From NCBI GenBank assembly GCA_013151735.1, contig JAADHR010000047.1:11569-55578 (forward strand): 44,010 nucleotides of DNA. The letters are read 5' to 3'. Under the pieces are notes generated by a model. The model did no database searches, was not told the DNA's origin, and saw only the letters and a program-made list of their open reading frames with translations. Below are positions 31,115 through 39,111 of this stretch, piece by piece (the first letter of the stretch is position 1; each line of letters begins with the position of its first letter). The position numbers were made by a program, and so were the translations under genes. The stretch is from Calditrichota bacterium. GTDB taxonomy: Bacteria > Zhuqueibacterota > JdFR-76 > BMS3Abin05.

Positions 31115-31141
31115 TCATGTTGGAAGAAAGGGATGAACAAA

Positions 31142-32626
31142 ATGGCCTCGAAATTCAACATACTGTTTGTAGCATCTGAAGTTGCCCCTTTTGCAAAAAC
31201 GGGCGGTTTGGCCGATGTGGCAAACTCTCTTCCAAAGGCCCTGAAGAATTTAAGGCATGATGTTCGAATTTTTATGCCCCGGTACCGTCAAATCAGCGAT
31301 CGAAAATTTGTGTTGAGAGAGGTCATTCGTCTTCAAGATATCACGCTGTCTGTTGGGGGAAAAGAAATCTCATTCGATATCAAATCCGCCTTTTTGCCCG
31401 GCACAAAAATTCAGGTCTATTTTTTGGATTACAAACCCTATTTCGATCGCGATGGGCTGTATGTGGATCCGGAAACCGGACAGGATTACCCGGATAATGA
31501 TGAACGATTCATCCTGTTTAATAAGGCCGCTATCGAGATATTGAAAATCTTGCATTGGCAGGCAGATGTGATCCATTGTAACGACTGGCAGTCGGCTCTT
31601 ATTCCGGCGTACATCAAAACGGTTCATGCAAACGATCCGTTCTTCAGTAAGATGCACACCTTGTTGACGATCCACAACATTGGCTATCAGGGAAATTTCT
31701 CGGCCGAATCGTTTGCTAAAACAGGGTTGCCAAACGATCTGTTTTACCCTACCGGTCCCGTTGAATTTTATGGAAAGTTCAGCTTTTTAAAAGCCGGTAT
31801 CTATTTTTCGGATAAAATCAACACGGTCAGTCCAACATACGCCCGGGAAATTCAGCAGTCTTCCGAATACGGATTTGGACTGGAAGGACTTCTTCGGGAG
31901 CGGTCAAAGGATGTGCACGGTATTTTAAATGGAGTGGATTATACCGATTGGGACCCTTCGGTTGATACGCATATTGCCGTGAATTACGATAGTAAAACCC
32001 TCAGCCAAAAGGTTGAAAACAAAAAGGCGCTGCTTGAGGAAGTGGCATTGCCATTTGACGAAAACACTCCCCTGATAGGTACGGTTTCCCGTTTGGCCGA
32101 TCAGAAAGGATTTGATATTTTGGCAGAGGCCATGGATGACCTGATGAAACTGGATTTGGAATATGTTCTGCTTGGGACGGGTGAACCCCAATATCACAAA
32201 TTATTTGAAATCTTCCAGAAAAAATATCCCCGCAAAATAAGCGCCCAGTTGAAATTTGATAACCGACTGGCGCACCTGATCGAAGCAGGAAGTGATATGT
32301 TTTTGATGCCGTCAAAATATGAGCCCTGCGGTCTGAATCAAATGTACAGCCTTCGGTACGGGACAATTCCAATTGTACGAAAAACGGGTGGATTGGCCGA
32401 TACGGTGGTCAATTTTAATCCAGAAACACATTCCGGTACAGGGTTTGTTTTTGAAGAGTATTCTGCGTCAGCGCTTATTGAAGCCGTCAAACGAGCGGTA
32501 GAAACGTTTCAGAATAAAAAAATATGGGTGCAATTGCAAAAACAGGCGATGAAACAGGACTTCTCCTGGGATGCATCCGCAAAGGAGTATCTAAAATTAT
32601 ATGCCCAATTACGGGGTGCTAAATAA
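31142..32626 (+). CDS. glgA: Glycogen synthase (GT5)
   Basis: A 494-residue glycosyltransferase that extends alpha-1,4-glucan from ADP- or UDP-glucose. Motifs: FVASEVAPFAKTGGLADV (the KTGGL nucleotide-sugar motif), WQADVIHCNDWQSALIPAYIK, LLTIHNIGYQG, INTVSPTYAREI, IGTVSRLADQKGFDILAEA, and the C-terminal MPSKYEPCGLNQMYSLRYG then RKTGGLADTV. Start 31142 is preferred since AAAGGG at 31127-31132 is 9 bases upstream; ATG 31133 touches it. No terminator is evident, so read-through into the polysaccharide locus is possible. Confidence 0.94.
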   Translation: MASKFNILFVASEVAPFAKTGGLADVANSLPKALKNLRHDVRIFMPRYRQISDRKFVLREVIRLQDITLSVGGKEISFDIKSAFLPGTKIQVYFLDYKPYFDRDGLYVDPETGQDYPDNDERFILFNKAAIEILKILHWQADVIHCNDWQSALIPAYIKTVHANDPFFSKMHTLLTIHNIGYQGNFSAESFAKTGLPNDLFYPTGPVEFYGKFSFLKAGIYFSDKINTVSPTYAREIQQSSEYGFGLEGLLRERSKDVHGILNGVDYTDWDPSVDTHIAVNYDSKTLSQKVENKKALLEEVALPFDENTPLIGTVSRLADQKGFDILAEAMDDLMKLDLEYVLLGTGEPQYHKLFEIFQKKYPRKISAQLKFDNRLAHLIEAGSDMFLMPSKYEPCGLNQMYSLRYGTIPIVRKTGGLADTVVNFNPETHSGTGFVFEEYSASALIEAVKRAVETFQNKKIWVQLQKQAMKQDFSWDASAKEYLKLYAQLRGAK

Positions 32627-32712
32627 AAGCTATTTTTTTGAGGAGGGTTGTTCCGTATCGATACAATGTTTCAGCCAACAACGGCGGAAAACGCTGTAAC
32701 CTATAGTATTAT

Positions 32713-32727
32713 AAGCAAATCTTGCTT
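32713..32727. promoter_or_regulatory. Inverted repeat in the gap before the STAS-HTH gene
   Basis: AAGCAA (32713-32718), ATC, TTGCTT (32722-32727) is a perfect 6-bp inverted repeat. It lies directly after TATAGTATTATA (32702-32713), which could be a -10 region, in the AT-rich 207-base gap 32627-32833. The position fits an operator controlling the polysaccharide locus; no other feature is clear in the gap. Confidence 0.3.
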
Positions 32728-32833
32728 CCTGCCTTAATTCAATAAAAAATAATTGATCATTCCATGGCATACAAATTGCAATAACTAAGCGAGATTATGA
32801 ATAAATGGATTTATTGAGATAAAAGGACTTTTG

Positions 32834-33553
32834 ATGGAAGGTATTCGAATACTTGATCGGTATGTGGGTTTATACGAAGATATCGTGTATATTCGGATTA
32901 TTGGTTATATCGACACAACAACATCTTTGGAATTGGTTCAGCATTTTAAGGATTTAATGAAAAAGGGGAACTATCAATTTGTTGTGGATATGAGTGGGGT
33001 CAATTATGTAAGCAGTGCGGGTTGGGGTGTTTTCGTTGGGGAGATCAAAGATATTCGGGACAATGGGGGCGATATAAAGATTGTACATATGACCCCTGAA
33101 GTATATGATGTATTTGAGATGCTTGAGTTTAATAGGATTTTAAAAGTCTATGATTCTGTTCCTGAAGCCATTAATGAATTCGATTTTATACGGGGATTTG
33201 ACCTGACTCAAACACCGGTAAAAGAATTACCTCCCGAAGAGCGAACCGTTCATAAAGAAAAGATGCATGTGGCTGTCGGAGAACCCATGTTGGAAGTGCC
33301 TGTAATGCGGTCCGGCACGCACGAACGAAAATGGGACATGCAGCAGTCAAATCCGAAATACCTTCCATTGGCGGAAAAAATTAAACAGGTCATTATAGAA
33401 AACCCGCTGTCCAGTTTTTGGCAGATAAAAAAACAACTTAAATCAGAAAAATACGGGCATGTCAAAATTAGTCCCTGGAAATTGCACAACCTGTTAAAAG
33501 AACTGAATTTAGACTCCAAAGAACGCCGAATGCGGTTTTATCGTTCACGCTAA
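32834..33553 (+). CDS. STAS-domain protein with C-terminal helix-turn-helix-like domain
   Basis: A 239-residue protein with two parts. Residues 5-112 are a STAS (anti-sigma-antagonist) domain, with strand VYIRIIGYIDTTTSLELV and the helix-start motif VVDMSGVNYVSSAGWGVFVGE. Ser60 or Ser61 is in the position phosphorylated in SpoIIAA. After a charged linker (115-175), residues about 178-235 form several basic helices: LAEKIKQVIIENP, SFWQIKKQLKSEKYG, SPWKLHNLLKELNL and SKERRMRFYRSR. These look like a winged or homeodomain-type helix-turn-helix. AAAAGGA 7 bases upstream supports ATG 32834. At the head of the polysaccharide genes it is a likely regulator controlled by partner-switching phosphorylation; DNA binding is inference. 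Confidence 0.78.
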   Translation: MEGIRILDRYVGLYEDIVYIRIIGYIDTTTSLELVQHFKDLMKKGNYQFVVDMSGVNYVSSAGWGVFVGEIKDIRDNGGDIKIVHMTPEVYDVFEMLEFNRILKVYDSVPEAINEFDFIRGFDLTQTPVKELPPEERTVHKEKMHVAVGEPMLEVPVMRSGTHERKWDMQQSNPKYLPLAEKIKQVIIENPLSSFWQIKKQLKSEKYGHVKISPWKLHNLLKELNLDSKERRMRFYRSR

Positions 33554-33567
33554 ATCGGGAGGGAAAG

Positions 33568-34224
33568 ATGAGAAAATCATTTTCTTCTTTTTTGATAATG
33601 GGTTTATTCTTATTTGGATTGGTATCAACCGTAAGGGCACAGGAATTACAGGGCCCTCTGGCGGTGGGCGATGCCATTCAATTAAAAATATGGCAATTGA
33701 GTGATCGGTCACAGGCGCTGATTAAAAGCCTGAATGGGGAATATACCATTGATGGATATGGGTACATTCTTTTGCCCATTGTGGGGTATCAAAAGATTGA
33801 AGGTTTGACTCCAAAAGAAGTTGAGATGGTGATTAAAAGCAAGTTTTCTTCCTATTTGGATGAACCGTTTATTGTCGTTACGCCGCTCATTCGCGTGGTT
33901 CTTATGGGTGAGTTTATCCGGCCGGGTTCCTATCGAATTAATCCGAATCAATCGTTGTGGGAACTGATTGAAATGGCGGACGGACCAACCAGCAAATGCG
34001 ATTTGAACAAGATGAAGGTCTATCGCGGAGGAAAACCGATCATTAAAAATTTATTATCTTCTTTTGAAAAAGGATTTTCGTTAAAAGAAATTGGTGTAAA
34101 ATCGGGTGATCAAATATTGGCGCCTGCAAAGAAAACATGGGGTATCCAGGAAGTGTTAACATTTTCCAATATGATGGTTTCTTTTGCCTTGCTGTATTTG
34201 CGATTAAAGGAAAAATGGTGGTAA
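33568..34224 (+). CDS. Wza-like polysaccharide export protein
   Basis: A 218-residue protein with a cleavable signal peptide (STVRAQ, about residue 24). The polysaccharide-export domain follows, with LAVGDAIQLKIWQLSD, YTIDGYGYILLPIVG and LTPKEVEMVIKSKF. One SLBB-type domain then has VVLMGEFIRPGSYRINPNQSL (in part). The C terminus ends in a hydrophobic helix (VSFALLYLRLKEKWW), comparable to the outer-membrane helix of Wza. There is no lipobox Cys and only one SLBB unit, so it is a short version. It would form the outer-membrane export channel together with the next gene's product. Confidence 0.88.
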   Translation: MRKSFSSFLIMGLFLFGLVSTVRAQELQGPLAVGDAIQLKIWQLSDRSQALIKSLNGEYTIDGYGYILLPIVGYQKIEGLTPKEVEMVIKSKFSSYLDEPFIVVTPLIRVVLMGEFIRPGSYRINPNQSLWELIEMADGPTSKCDLNKMKVYRGGKPIIKNLLSSFEKGFSLKEIGVKSGDQILAPAKKTWGIQEVLTFSNMMVSFALLYLRLKEKWW

Positions 34225-34249: not shown

Positions 34250-36574
34250 ATGGATTTGGATCAGTTCTTCATTGAAGAAGAAACGAATGATGGACAGAAT
34301 TTTGATATCAAAAAATATATTAAGGGTATTTATAAGCGGAAGTGGCTGGTAATTGCAGTATTTTTGGTTGTCTTAATTCCATGGGTTCTTTATGTAAAAA
34401 GCCAGCCCCCGCAATACGAAGCCTTTGCCCTTATCCGATTTAAGAATTACGAATCGAAAAATCTTCGTGCCTTAAATGAAGGGCGAATTACCGAATTAAG
34501 AAGCCGGACCTTCGCGGAACGGGTTGTTGCGCAATTGGGATTAACGCTGGAAATTATTCACCCCAAAAATGAAAAACACCCCTTGCAAAGGGATGATATT
34601 TTTTACGAATTCTATACCGATAAAAACCCGGTTTCAGGAAACTATAAGCTGGTGTTTGATAAAAAATTAAAAGAATACAGGCTGTATTATATTACACTCG
34701 AAAAGCGCGAAAAACTAATTTCTCAGGGAGATTTTTCCAAAATAGTGGACAGCGACTTAACGCTGAACGGTTTCACGTTTCGAATTAAACCTTCGATAGT
34801 GGATAAAATTTCTGTTGTGAATTTTGCTGTAAAGGATTTCTTCTCAACGGTCAATTCTTTTCGTGCTCATGTTTCAGTGGACATGAATCGGGCGGGAACA
34901 CTCATGCGGTTGAGTATCGTTGACAAAAATCCCTATCTTGTTGCAAATATGGTCAATGAGCTGGCCGATCTTTTTGTTCAAGAAAGTGTTTCGTCTCAAC
35001 GAAAGAGATCAAAAAACTATAAAGACATTCTTGAACAGAAGCTGATGGTTTCAAAAGAGAATTTGGATAAAGCCAATGCAGAACTGAAAGCTTTTAAGCA
35101 GACCCATTATATCAATCTTGACAATGAAGTCAATTCAAAAATTGCAGAAATATCCTCCCTTCAGGCAAAGGTTAGCAATCTTAAAGAGACAGCCAGCAGT
35201 CTTTCAATGTTGTTGGCGAAATTGAAATCAGTGGATAAAAATTCAAATAAGCTTTCCTATATCTACCGGGAAATTGCAAATAACATGGCTTTTAAGAATG
35301 ACCCCTCCATGGGAATCCTTAAACAGCAACTCCTGGATCTTGAAAGCAAACGGGCCGAGCTCATTAAACAGGTAAATGTGACCCATCCGGATGTGATTAA
35401 GCTGGATCAACAGATTCAGACGATTTACTCCGAAATTCAAACCATTGCGGAAAATCGATTGAATGAGATTTATCGGGAAGTCAATTCGTTAGCCACTTCG
35501 GAAAAGGATATCCGGCAGAATTTGAGAGTTCTTCCTGCGGAAGAGCTTCGATTGGCAGAGCTGACCCAGAATGTGAAAGTGGCCAACACCATTTATTCTG
35601 ATTTGCTTGCGAAATATCAGGAGGCTCAGATTACCGAGTCCGTTGAAACGCAGGATATTGATATTCTTGATCCGGCCATTCCGCCTCAATATCCCGTAAA
35701 TCGTGATAAGAAAAAGAAGGCGGCAATGGGAGGATTTCTGGCGCTTTTTCTTTCATTGGGAACCGCCATTACACTGGAATTCATGGACAAAACAATCAAA
35801 ACACCTGAAGATGTAAAAAAATATTTGAAATTGTCTGTGATCGGCACCATTCCCAATGTGAAATTTGATGAAGAAATCGAATTGAATGATGCGGATAAAA
35901 TCAAGAAAATAGATTCACAATTGGTGACATACGATTATTCCCCCACGCCAGTAGGCGAAGCCTACCGTGCGCTCCGTACAAAAATCATGTTTTCCAAAAA
36001 CACCGGCCGGATAAAAACACTGGTCGTCACCAGTTTTGCGCCGGGTGATGGAAAATCCTTTACCTGTTCCAATTTGGCCATTACGCTTGCCCAGCACAAA
36101 ACCAATGTTCTGTTGGTGGATGCCGACCTGCGGCGGGGCGTGCAGCATAATACGTTCTCTGTGGCAAAGGAACCCGGATTAACGAATTACCTGATGGGAG
36201 TAGCCACGTTCAATGAAGTGACTCAGGAAACCCACGTGCCCAATTTATACATGGTGAGTTGCGGTTCAATGGTTCCCAATCCGTCGGAGCTGCTGGGGTC
36301 GATGCGATTGAAACGATTTATCGACGAAGCCAAACGCCGATTCGATTTTATCATGTTTGATACCCCCCCGCTCAATGCCGCCACCGATTCGGTTGTTTTG
36401 GGCACGCAGGTGGATGGTCTGCTAATAATTGCGCGGGCGGAGGTTACCAACAGAAATGTTGCCAAACAAAAATTGGATTTATTTGAAAATGTTCCGGTAA
36501 ATATTATTGGTGCCGTTTTGAATGGATCTGAACAGGATTTGGCGCACGAGGGGTACAGCTATTATCATTATTAG
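34250..36574 (+). CDS. Wzz-type chain-length protein fused to BY tyrosine kinase (Wzc-like)
   Basis: A 774-residue inner-membrane protein. A Wzz domain has the first membrane helix at about 30-48 (WLVIAVFLVVLIPWVLYV) and a long coiled-coil periplasmic region (about 250-430). The second membrane helix (about 490-510) is preceded by DPAIPPQYPVNRDKKKK. The cytoplasmic kinase has Walker A APGDGKS (about 597-603), A' VLLVDADLRRG and B FIMFDTPPLNAATD. The C terminus is a Tyr cluster, GYSYYHY, for autophosphorylation. It controls polymer length and drives export with the Wza-like protein encoded 25 bases upstream. Confidence 0.93.
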   Translation: MDLDQFFIEEETNDGQNFDIKKYIKGIYKRKWLVIAVFLVVLIPWVLYVKSQPPQYEAFALIRFKNYESKNLRALNEGRITELRSRTFAERVVAQLGLTLEIIHPKNEKHPLQRDDIFYEFYTDKNPVSGNYKLVFDKKLKEYRLYYITLEKREKLISQGDFSKIVDSDLTLNGFTFRIKPSIVDKISVVNFAVKDFFSTVNSFRAHVSVDMNRAGTLMRLSIVDKNPYLVANMVNELADLFVQESVSSQRKRSKNYKDILEQKLMVSKENLDKANAELKAFKQTHYINLDNEVNSKIAEISSLQAKVSNLKETASSLSMLLAKLKSVDKNSNKLSYIYREIANNMAFKNDPSMGILKQQLLDLESKRAELIKQVNVTHPDVIKLDQQIQTIYSEIQTIAENRLNEIYREVNSLATSEKDIRQNLRVLPAEELRLAELTQNVKVANTIYSDLLAKYQEAQITESVETQDIDILDPAIPPQYPVNRDKKKKAAMGGFLALFLSLGTAITLEFMDKTIKTPEDVKKYLKLSVIGTIPNVKFDEEIELNDADKIKKIDSQLVTYDYSPTPVGEAYRALRTKIMFSKNTGRIKTLVVTSFAPGDGKSFTCSNLAITLAQHKTNVLLVDADLRRGVQHNTFSVAKEPGLTNYLMGVATFNEVTQETHVPNLYMVSCGSMVPNPSELLGSMRLKRFIDEAKRRFDFIMFDTPPLNAATDSVVLGTQVDGLLIIARAEVTNRNVAKQKLDLFENVPVNIIGAVLNGSEQDLAHEGYSYYHY

Positions 36575-36681: not shown

Positions 36682-37641
36682 ATGCAGATTTTAGTTACAG
36701 GCAGTGCCGGTTTTATTGGTTCACATCTCACTGAAAAACTACTGAGCAGGGGGGATTTTGTTGCAGGTATTGATAATTTCAATGATTATTATGACCCGCG
36801 CATCAAACGAGACAATCTGAAAAGTGCCTTAAAACATCCGAATTTTTCCCTTTTTGAAATGGACATCCGGGACAAAAAGGGATTGGAATCAATCGCGAAG
36901 GATTTCTCTTTTGATGTTATTGTCCATTTGGCCGCGCGGGCCGGTGTACGTCCTTCACTCAAAGATCCGCTTCTCTATCAGGATGTTAATATCAGGGGGA
37001 CGATGAATCTTTTGGAGGTAGCCCGGGACCAAGATATTCCCAAGTTTGTCTTTGCTTCGTCTTCCTCGGTTTATGGCAGCAACAAAAAAGTGCCCTTTAG
37101 TGAGACCGATAATGTGGATCATCCCGTATCGCCCTATGCTGCTACAAAAAAGGCAGGAGAATTGATCGGATATACCTACCATCATTTGTACGGTTTCTCT
37201 TTTACGGGTATTCGGTTCTTTACGGTTTATGGACCACGACAGCGCCCGGACATGGCCATTCACAAATTTACCGCATTAATCGACCAAGGAATGGAAATCC
37301 CTGTTTTTGGAGATGGTCTTTCCAGGCGGGATTACACGTATGTGGATGACATCGTGGATGGAATCATTCGAATTATTGATAAAAGCACCGGTTATGCTCT
37401 TTACAATTTAGGCGATTCCCGAACAATTGGCCTGATGGAAATGATTCAAACCATCGAAAAATATCTTGGAAAGAAAGCAAAAATAAAAAAACTGCCCTTT
37501 CAACCCGGTGATGTTCCCATTACCTACGCCGATATTACAAAAGCACAAGCTGAATTGGGTTATGAACCCAAAGTGCTTTTTGATGAGGGTATTCAGAAAT
37601 TTATTCACTGGTATCTGGAAAAATCCAATCGATTTGTTTAA
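36682..37641 (+). CDS. NAD-dependent UDP-sugar 4-epimerase (UDP-glucuronate type)
   Basis: A 319-residue extended short-chain dehydrogenase. It has an N-terminal ILVTGSAGFIGSHL (NAD site), GIDNFNDYYDPRIKRDNL, the catalytic SSSSVYG and YAATKKAGE (YxxxK), and GIRFFTVYGPRQRPDMAI. 'DNFNDYYDxxIKRxNL' and 'YGPxxRPDMA' are typical of UDP-glucuronate 4-epimerases, which turn UDP-GlcA into UDP-GalA. That fits the UDP-glucose dehydrogenase encoded downstream. Other 4-epimerase substrates remain possible. Confidence 0.88.
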   Translation: MQILVTGSAGFIGSHLTEKLLSRGDFVAGIDNFNDYYDPRIKRDNLKSALKHPNFSLFEMDIRDKKGLESIAKDFSFDVIVHLAARAGVRPSLKDPLLYQDVNIRGTMNLLEVARDQDIPKFVFASSSSVYGSNKKVPFSETDNVDHPVSPYAATKKAGELIGYTYHHLYGFSFTGIRFFTVYGPRQRPDMAIHKFTALIDQGMEIPVFGDGLSRRDYTYVDDIVDGIIRIIDKSTGYALYNLGDSRTIGLMEMIQTIEKYLGKKAKIKKLPFQPGDVPITYADITKAQAELGYEPKVLFDEGIQKFIHWYLEKSNRFV

Positions 37642-37653
37642 AAAGGCTGTTTC

Positions 37654-39111
37654 ATGGTTCACGAAAAGGAAGCGTTCCTTAAAAATATATTGCAGATTTT
37701 TGATGCCATTACAGTTAGTTTGGCTTTTTTTGTGTCATTTTTTATCATTGGGTATATTCGAACACTGTACAATTTGGGCGAAATGGCCTATGCTCCGTCC
37801 TTTGATTTGAACGGGGCCATTTATTTTTTTGAATATAATATTTCCATTTTTATTAGTGCCATCGTATTCTGGTTGATTTTTCTCTCTTATTTTGGGGTGT
37901 ACACCGATTTCCGAACGCGCAGTTTCTGGGAGATCGTTTGGATAACCCTGAAATCCAGTTTTTTTGTCACATTAGCCCTGGGAAGCGTTGTTTTTCTGAC
38001 GAAAATGACGTTAACAAGCCGCCTCTTTATTCTCACGTTTACGGGTATGTCAATCGTCTTTATTTTGCTTGAGAAGAAGACGGTGAATTTTCTTCTGGAA
38101 ATTCTTCGGAAAAGCGGCTACAACAGCATCAATTTACTCATTGTCGGAACAGGGCCGCGTGCCCAAAAGTTTATTGATAGTGTCCAAAAACATTCCAAGT
38201 GGGGGCTCAAAATCATTGGTCTTGTTGACGATGAACCCGGAAAAGTGGGCACTCGCGTAAGAGGGTTTAAGGTGCTGGGACGCTTACGGGATATTCCTCC
38301 GATCCTGCATGATTATGTGGTTGATAATGTTGTTTTTGTTGTTCCCCGAAATTGGCTGAGCAAAATTGAGAATGCGATTATTGCCTGTGAAAATGAAGGC
38401 GTCGGCGCATACATCTCGATTGATTTATACAATACGAAAATATCCAAACTCAAACAGAGCAAACTGGGGAATATTCCCCTGCTGGAATTTGATACGGTTC
38501 CTGCAAATGAGTGGCAGCTTTTTATTAAACGAAGCCTGGACATTATTTTGTCGCTGGTTGGAATTGTTGTGGCAGCGCCATTATTCCTAATAATTGCTGT
38601 CGGGATCAAATTGTCGTCACCGGGACCGATTTTATTCAAACAAGAGCGTGTGGGGGTTAACGGCAGGCGCTTTACGCTCTACAAATTCAGGACGATGCGG
38701 GTAGGAGCCGATATAAAAAAGAAGGAGCTTGAGCGGCAGAATGAAATGAAGGGGCCGGTTTTCAAGATCAAACATGATCCCCGTGTGTATCCTTTTGGGC
38801 GTTTTTTGCGGAAAACCAGTATGGATGAATTGCCCCAGCTCTTTAATGTTTTAAAAGGGGATATGAGTATCGTTGGTCCGCGTCCGCCGCTGCCGGTTGA
38901 GGTTGAAATGTATGAAATCTGGCAGCGCCGCCGCCTGAGCCTCAAGCCCGGATTAACATGCATTTGGCAGGTGAGCGGAAGAAACGAAGTCGATTTCGAC
39001 GAATGGATGCAAATGGATCTGGATTATATTGATAATTGGTCCCTATTTCTGGATTTTAAGATTATGTTTAAAACCATTTTTGTGGTCCTTTTTGGCTACG
39101 GTGCCTACTAA
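37654..39111 (+). CDS. Polyprenyl-phosphate sugar-phosphotransferase (initiating enzyme, WbaP-like)
   Basis: A 485-residue membrane protein that starts repeat-unit assembly by transferring a sugar phosphate to undecaprenyl phosphate. The N-terminal half has four membrane helices, then a nucleotide-fold domain (LLIVGTGPRAQKFIDSV). The catalytic C-terminal bacterial sugar transferase domain has KRSLDIILSLVGIVVAAPL, PGPILFKQERVG, FTLYKFRTMR, RKTSMDELPQLFNVLKGDMS, IVGPRPPLP and KPGLTCIWQVSGR. It starts 12 bases after the epimerase gene. The sugar (glucose or galactose type) cannot be told. Confidence 0.93.
   Translation: MVHEKEAFLKNILQIFDAITVSLAFFVSFFIIGYIRTLYNLGEMAYAPSFDLNGAIYFFEYNISIFISAIVFWLIFLSYFGVYTDFRTRSFWEIVWITLKSSFFVTLALGSVVFLTKMTLTSRLFILTFTGMSIVFILLEKKTVNFLLEILRKSGYNSINLLIVGTGPRAQKFIDSVQKHSKWGLKIIGLVDDEPGKVGTRVRGFKVLGRLRDIPPILHDYVVDNVVFVVPRNWLSKIENAIIACENEGVGAYISIDLYNTKISKLKQSKLGNIPLLEFDTVPANEWQLFIKRSLDIILSLVGIVVAAPLFLIIAVGIKLSSPGPILFKQERVGVNGRRFTLYKFRTMRVGADIKKKELERQNEMKGPVFKIKHDPRVYPFGRFLRKTSMDELPQLFNVLKGDMSIVGPRPPLPVEVEMYEIWQRRRLSLKPGLTCIWQVSGRNEVDFDEWMQMDLDYIDNWSLFLDFKIMFKTIFVVLFGYGAY

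Follow-up and report, generated by a model that had tools for sequence, protein, structure and literature searches.

A STAS-HTH fusion protein at the head of a conserved exopolysaccharide operon of Calditrichota, a candidate phosphorylation-switched regulator

The window, that is the whole stretch of 44,010 nucleotides analysed from a Calditrichota bacterium contig, carries an exopolysaccharide (EPS) operon whose first gene encodes a protein with a STAS domain, a linker and a helix-turn-helix (HTH) domain, here named STAS-A (Table 1). The open reading frame runs from an ATG at 32834 to a stop at 33553, with an AAAGGA ribosome-binding-like site 6 nt before the start. A first-pass annotation had placed this gene at the head of an exopolysaccharide locus, and the Poly_export/SLBB, Wzz-GNVR/AAA, epimerase and Bac_transf genes that follow bear this out. 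The survey of orthologous loci paints the same picture. After L085 and L093, which lack the focal STAS reading frame, had been dropped, STAS-A was found between glgA and a Wza-like gene, with glgA directly upstream in 28 of 29 loci and the Wza-like gene next in 28 of 29, and a Wzc-like gene followed within two genes in all 29. A gap of 190-418 bp precedes STAS-A in 24 of the 29 loci, and the Wza gene is usually close behind, which indicates that STAS-A normally heads the operon. On a wider scale, positions 23732-43742 of the window hold the EPS operon after a cell-shape/envelope block (MreC-, PBP2-, RodA-, Lgt- and YbgF-like, GalT and GlgA genes, with names taken partly from sequence reading), an arrangement seen phylum-wide with unusually stable gene order.

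Table 1. Features of the STAS-A locus, with positions counted from the first letter of the window.
Feature	Position	Strand	Evidence or remark
Glycogen/starch synthase gene (GlgA), upstream of STAS-A	31133..32626	+	PF08323 E 6.5e-89
Conserved 17-bp dyad TGTTCCGTATCGATACA, TGT-N11-ACA, probable enhancer/operator	32649..32665	+	kept in orthologous gaps
Second, imperfect dyad TGTTTCAGCCAACAACG, 18 bp beyond the first one	32667..32683	+	tandem neighbour elsewhere too
Inverted repeat AAGCAA-ATC-TTGCTT, not supported as target	32713..32727	.	present, not conserved
Sigma54-type -24/-12 promoter ATGGCATACAAATTGCA	32764..32780	+	matrix score, conserved in orthologous gaps
STAS-A (STAS-linker-HTH), 239 aa, first gene of EPS operon	32834..33553	+	ORF and profile matches
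STAS domain, residues 15-112	32876..33169	+	PF01740 E 7.6e-19
Ser61 codon, equivalent of SpoIIAA Ser58 (predicted phosphorylation site)	33014..33016	+	profile alignment
Linker, residues 123-171, predicted disordered	33200..33346	+	AlphaFold pLDDT <50
C-terminal HTH domain, residues 174-239	33353..33550	+	AlphaFold; HMM/hhalign links to K and STAS-B
Near-invariant C-terminal tail RFYRSR, residues 234-239	33533..33550	+	mean column identity 0.96, 29 orthologues
Wza-like polysaccharide export gene (Poly_export/SLBB), 14 bp 3' of STAS-A	33568..34224	+	PF02563 E 1.1e-11
Wzc/GNVR chain-length and AAA gene	34250..36574	+	PF02706, PF13807, PF13614
NAD-dependent sugar epimerase	36682..37641	+	PF01370 E 6.3e-61
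Bac_transf polyprenyl glycosylphosphotransferase	37654..39111	+	PF02397 E 4.9e-70

Besides its Pfam match, the STAS domain is matched by TIGR00377 at E 8.5e-18, over the cut-off of the model, and its closest solved structures are SpoIIAA, RsbV and TM1442 (fold-match E 9e-9). Ser60 and Ser61 had both been assigned to the phosphorylation position of SpoIIAA. In the profile alignment this holds for Ser61, which pairs with Ser58, but not for Ser60, which pairs with Asp57; the alanine of 1TID, an S58A protein, aligns opposite Ser61. Both serines are invariant in 29/29 orthologues, and the motif SSAGW around them is near invariant. STAS-A has both the STAS fold and the phosphorylatable serine expected of an anti-sigma-factor antagonist. 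The linker that follows is poorly conserved (mean column identity 0.26 for residues 123-172 over 29 orthologues).

The C-terminal domain is predicted by AlphaFold as a separate, confident unit of four helices (residues 179-189, 195-202, 214-223 and 229-238; pLDDT about 90, and 89 for the domain alone), and together with the STAS profile matches this upholds the proposed STAS-HTH fusion. The last 66 residues carry a net charge of +10, ranging from +6 to +15 in 29/29 orthologues, whereas STAS-A outside this domain is neutral to acidic, so that the C-terminal half is indeed basic and helical, as the first-pass annotation had described it. A DNA-binding type of fold is supported, in that DNA-binding winged HTH (wHTH) proteins such as ArgR, PadR/LmrR and a transposase head the structural matches, although their scores are weak (Foldseek E 1.3 at best, Z up to 6.1). 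The recognition helix is not specially conserved. Over the 29 orthologues, the HTH helices show intermediate conservation (0.51-0.63), the putative recognition helix 214-223 is at 0.55 identity, not above the remainder of the HTH, and the most conserved portion of the domain is the tail RFYRSR. Such moderate conservation of the recognition helix counts against simple sequence-specific binding by STAS-A.

Neither residues 170-239 nor the isolated 66-aa segment matched a Pfam family, and PDB searches with the domain, by single sequence and by profile, returned nothing credible. With single STAS-type and K-type HTH sequences (K is introduced below), Pfam gave sub-threshold HTH_21/HTH_32 matches only, in 8 and 6 of 15 members, and a check of STAS-A for a MarR/ArsR-like wHTH likewise gave only weak HTH_21/HTH_32 and ArgR/PadR-like matches. 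From the sequence we infer that STAS-A may bind DNA and that Ser61 may be phosphorylated.

The same HTH is present on two other proteins of this genome. STAS-B is a paralogue of STAS-A with 41% identity, and K, a protein of ~1,250 residues, is encoded directly before STAS-B in 10/10 loci. Profile searches reveal in K an RsbW-type HATPase, HAMP, a SpoIIE phosphatase, the HTH region and TPRs, and by hydropathy 8 of 11 K proteins have at least two membrane-like segments, the remaining 3 having a single one. Being membrane-bound is odd for a DNA binder. The HTH profiles of STAS-A, STAS-B and K reciprocally detect one another in the genome by HMM, and hhalign connects the HTH of K with the STAS C-terminus (96.8%, E 2.6e-10), a second link within the family reaching E 7.8e-27. 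At E <= 0.003 these three are the only copies in this genome, with one further match at E 0.9. Across 82 genomes of the phylum, 57 have exactly three copies, 15 have four or five, and 10 have two or fewer; ten further HTH loci, read from eight genomes that carry four or five, comprise four STAS-long linker-HTH proteins and six K-type proteins. The genes for K and STAS-A stand apart in the genome, at two loci, so that their pairing is one that we infer. Overall, this suggests one dedicated wiring of a switch protein and a membrane enzyme, kept across the whole phylum. A gene of the PorV/TPR outer-membrane type and a large surface-protein gene precede K and STAS-B (L087:2-4783 and relatives), neighbours that suggest a tie between K and type IX-like secretion.

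The origin of the domain is best seen in K, whose HTH matches the N-terminus of IS481 transposases (NF033577, E 3.7e-10, and 1.9e-16 for an out-of-phylum K, neither reaching the cut-off set for the whole protein, which a single domain is not expected to do). The out-of-phylum K also matches IS3 (E 4.1e-10). Judged by these matches, the HTH of K appears recognisably transposase-derived and of IS481 type. The HTH pair of K matches the IS481 model, and the STAS-A domain corresponds to its second half; since the latter has no Pfam match of its own, its tie to the transposase domain runs through K and the other family members. IS481/IS3 transposases have a catalytic domain, whereas the proteins described here are without it and are fused to signalling domains instead.

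Of the 59 genomes searched in the phylum (Calditrichota/KSB1 group), its own included, 58 have a homologue of STAS-A over the full length (about residues 1-239). The exception is G006, where the match ends at residue 139, near a contig end. The nearest relative, from bacterium BMS3Bbin03, is 73% identical. Among 306 sampled genomes of other phyla, matches with E <= 1e-4 are found in 11 and are strong in five, and gene order was read at four loci in three of these genomes. STAS-A is followed by Wza and Wzc in G154 and G295. Furthermore, G295 has the set of surface protein, PorV-TPR and K, then STAS-B, and G217 has the same set with a STAS protein three ORFs later. In the plasmid collection, matches were to the STAS half only (5 records). 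Among the open-licence papers listed on STAS-HTH fusions, CapS/CapK, partner switching in relation to exopolysaccharide and to sigma54, hormogonium systems, or transposase with SpoIIE/HATPase, none describes this system, and the open-licence literature on Caldithrix/KSB1 yielded no STAS paper.

The gap upstream of STAS-A contains a sigma54-type promoter and a tandem of dyads. Scored with a matrix built on the sigma54 consensus with weights chosen by us, sites of at least 13.5 were found in 20 of 24 orthologous gaps (the set omits five of the 29 gaps, L071, L075, L079, L100 and L102, which lie outside 100-450 bp) and in 11 of 125 control gaps taken from these loci (Fisher P 2e-13, a value that overstates independence as the loci are related; focal gaps end at the STAS start motif and control gaps at the first start codon). 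In the whole genome there are 37 occurrences of the pattern, versus 5 in a reversed control. The TGT-N11-ACA dyad is present in 22/24 orthologous gaps and in 7/125 control gaps (P 3e-18, overstated for the same reason), each of nine other dyad spacings (N6 to N15) appears in 1-5 of the 24 gaps, and a second copy lies 18-21 bp from the first in most orthologous gaps. NtrC-type enhancers have the geometry TGC-N11-GCA, which equals that of the dyad, and about 34 genes of the genome strongly match the sigma54-activator domain. It is probably a sigma54 activator, and not necessarily STAS-A, that the dyad serves.

The association of these elements with STAS-A has exceptions. STAS-A retains its HTH at L071, L079, L100 and L102, where no dyad is close upstream, and at L071, L072, L074, L079 and L099 the stretch from STAS-A to the export gene behind it contains a sigma54-like site. 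The out-of-phylum STAS-A loci L195 and L196 have no sigma54 site scoring at least 14.5. Three of four STAS-C genes have no dyad within 500 bp upstream, and the fourth has a dyad without a sigma54 site. The 11 stretches upstream of K that were scanned for dyad and sigma54 site gave isolated matches only (L193, L194), and among the 30 sigma54-type sites that were read, out of 37, none of the 29 others has a clear TGTTTC-type tandem dyad. L072, L073, L074, L075 and L078 have more sigma54-like sites, away from the STAS-A promoter, each preceded at a distance of about 130 bp by TGT-N11-ACA dyads of TGTGTC type.

The inverted repeat in this gap, proposed in the first-pass annotation as a possible target, does exist but is at chance level: the gap has 3 six-base dyads versus 1.4 expected (P 0.19). 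It is also missing from the gaps of the four closest relatives, and the conserved cis-elements are elsewhere in the gap. A sigma70 scan for a vegetative promoter was uninformative, with 4 matches versus 3.3 expected.

STAS-A can be compared with several known systems. SiaA/SiaB/SiaC also has a HAMP-PP2C membrane phosphatase linked to biofilm control (compare an NCBIfam SiaA match), with separate kinase and phosphatase genes and a STAS-like protein that is not known to carry an HTH. The antagonists SpoIIAA and RsbV share the STAS fold and the serine of STAS-A, yet they are single-domain proteins acting via an anti-sigma factor, whereas STAS-A is multi-domain and has no adjacent anti-sigma or sigma genes. 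Transcription of syp is activated by SypG, a sigma54 activator, and SypE belongs to the response regulators and is not known as an HTH-bearing membrane protein like K. According to the report on Vibrio fischeri (PMC4517449), SypA is also a STAS protein in a polysaccharide locus, although single-domain where STAS-A has an added C-terminal HTH, and SypE unites kinase and phosphatase activities in one protein, as the domains of K would in its presumed pairing with STAS-A.

The other of the two nearest precedents, beside SypA/SypE, is CapS, a STAS-wHTH repressor whose DNA binding ends upon serine phosphorylation (PMC13373217, EMBO J 2026). In that account, CapS too has a STAS followed by an HTH-type domain, a conserved serine at the SpoIIAA Ser58 position, a gene at the promoter of the operon that it precedes, and a kinase partner, CapK, which also carries an HTH. 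The differences from this source (PMC13373217) are that the MarR/ArsR-like wHTH of CapS directly follows the STAS (residues 112-184), whereas STAS-A has a long disordered linker and an HTH that appears to be of transposase type; that CapS stands beside CapK, an HTH-STAS-GHKL kinase, at immune operons, whereas the upstream gene of STAS-A is glgA (28/29) and the operon is a polysaccharide one; and that CapK adjoins CapS, whereas K is a membrane kinase fused to a SpoIIE phosphatase, at a second locus. CapS is absent among the structural matches listed for the HTH domain, which excludes nothing.

A phosphoswitch like that of CapS, placed at a Syp-like polysaccharide operon, appears to be the best explanation of these likenesses. 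We propose, with a probability of roughly 45%, that the EPS operon has a partner-switching system of its own, whose output is STAS-A, the protein at its head, switched by phosphorylation. The domains, the shared HTH family, the gene order, its conservation, the sigma54-type promoter and the dyad come directly from the computation. K, with its RsbW-type kinase, a sensor region enclosed by membrane segments, HAMP, SpoIIE-type PP2C phosphatase, transposase-type HTH and TPRs, would set the phosphorylation state of Ser61 on STAS-A, and that of the same serine on STAS-B. Unphosphorylated, the STAS domains would dimerise and the basic HTH would bind DNA, for which the promoter region of the operon itself is the likeliest place. 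Phosphorylation would break the STAS dimer and release the DNA, as reported for CapS, and the sign of the regulation is presumed likewise. Sigma54 and an enhancer-binding protein would switch the operon on, and STAS-A would add a second, feedback layer on the promoter. Several observations count against this reading: the recognition helix is only moderately conserved although the dyad is conserved, so that STAS-A need not read the latter; STAS-A keeps its HTH at loci with no dyad nearby; K sits in the membrane and is encoded away from STAS-A; the C-terminal domain lacks a Pfam match and has weak fold matches; and the out-of-phylum STAS-A loci show no clear sigma54 site. The earlier suggestion that a direct fusion could let phosphorylation control DNA binding without a sigma factor needs care, since the operon itself has a sigma54-type promoter. 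It is somewhat unlikely, though conceivable, that all components of one partner switch acquired a captured DNA-binding domain of a transposase, which spread among them, with enzyme and substrate meeting via it, perhaps on the same operator, as a membrane-to-promoter phosphoswitch for the EPS coat across the phylum.

The main rival is a docking role. The HTH-type domain could be a protein docking module that brings K and its STAS substrates together, or that attaches STAS-A to the sigma54 activator or to the Wza/Wzc machinery, so that the output would be a protein contact and no DNA would be bound. We regard this as less likely than not, though a serious possibility. Wherever it was read, the domain was found solely on kinase-phosphatases and STAS proteins; K is anchored in the membrane; the tail RFYRSR, and not the recognition helix, is most conserved; and STAS-A keeps the domain where the dyad is not close upstream. 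According to PMC4517449, SypA acts on a target not yet known; for it, too, an output by protein contact is presumed. However, the fold and sequence relatives of the domain are DNA-binding, its positive charge stands against a neutral to acidic remainder of the protein, and CapS, a STAS-wHTH, binds DNA (PMC13373217).

Two other explanations have less in their favor. It is improbable that the TGT-N11-ACA dyad is read by STAS-A, STAS-B or K, making the enhancer this system's own and not that of a sigma54 activator. The tight linkage of the dyad to the STAS-A promoter region and an HTH of DNA-binding transposase type would fit such a role, but its geometry equals the NtrC-type consensus, its place ahead of a sigma54-type promoter is that of activator sites, there are about 34 candidate activators, and the STAS-C genes lack the combination of dyad and sigma54 site. 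Quite improbable, in our view, is that STAS-A acts as a conventional anti-sigma-factor antagonist, with the C-terminal domain adding specificity and with sigma release from an RsbW-like anti-sigma factor as the output. The canonical STAS with Ser61 and the six strong HATPase_c_2 genes in the genome agree with it. Against it, a neighbouring STAS gene accompanies each of four among the other five strong HATPase_c_2 genes, no SigB/F/G-type sigma was found above cut-off in the genome, the operon has a sigma54-type promoter, and the neighbours are glgA and the Wza-like gene in place of sigma/anti-sigma genes.

If STAS-A is a phosphorylation-switched regulator, its distribution, across the whole phylum and with strong matches in five outside genomes, points to a regulatory system in which a membrane kinase-phosphatase is linked to an EPS operon. 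The idea behind CapS, phosphorylation-controlled STAS transcription factors, would be extended from immunity to cell-surface biology, and STAS-A would offer a concrete test of how STAS proteins like SypA, for which there is no known sigma factor, exert their output. The signalling proteins also seem to have reused the DNA-binding domain of a transposase.

Partner-switching components occur elsewhere as well. At G000:C199:117795-122107 (L005, L146), genes for a single-domain STAS, an RsbW-type kinase and a SpoIIE phosphatase cluster with that of a sigma54 activator, which would make a second partner switch beside such an activator. Within the HTH family, L116, L117 and L119 encode K relatives of great length, about 1,840-1,990 aa, in which long acidic stretches of low complexity separate the HTH from the TPRs, and L114, L115, L118 and L123 carry a third STAS paralogue, in which the linkers between STAS and HTH span roughly 200 to 600 residues.
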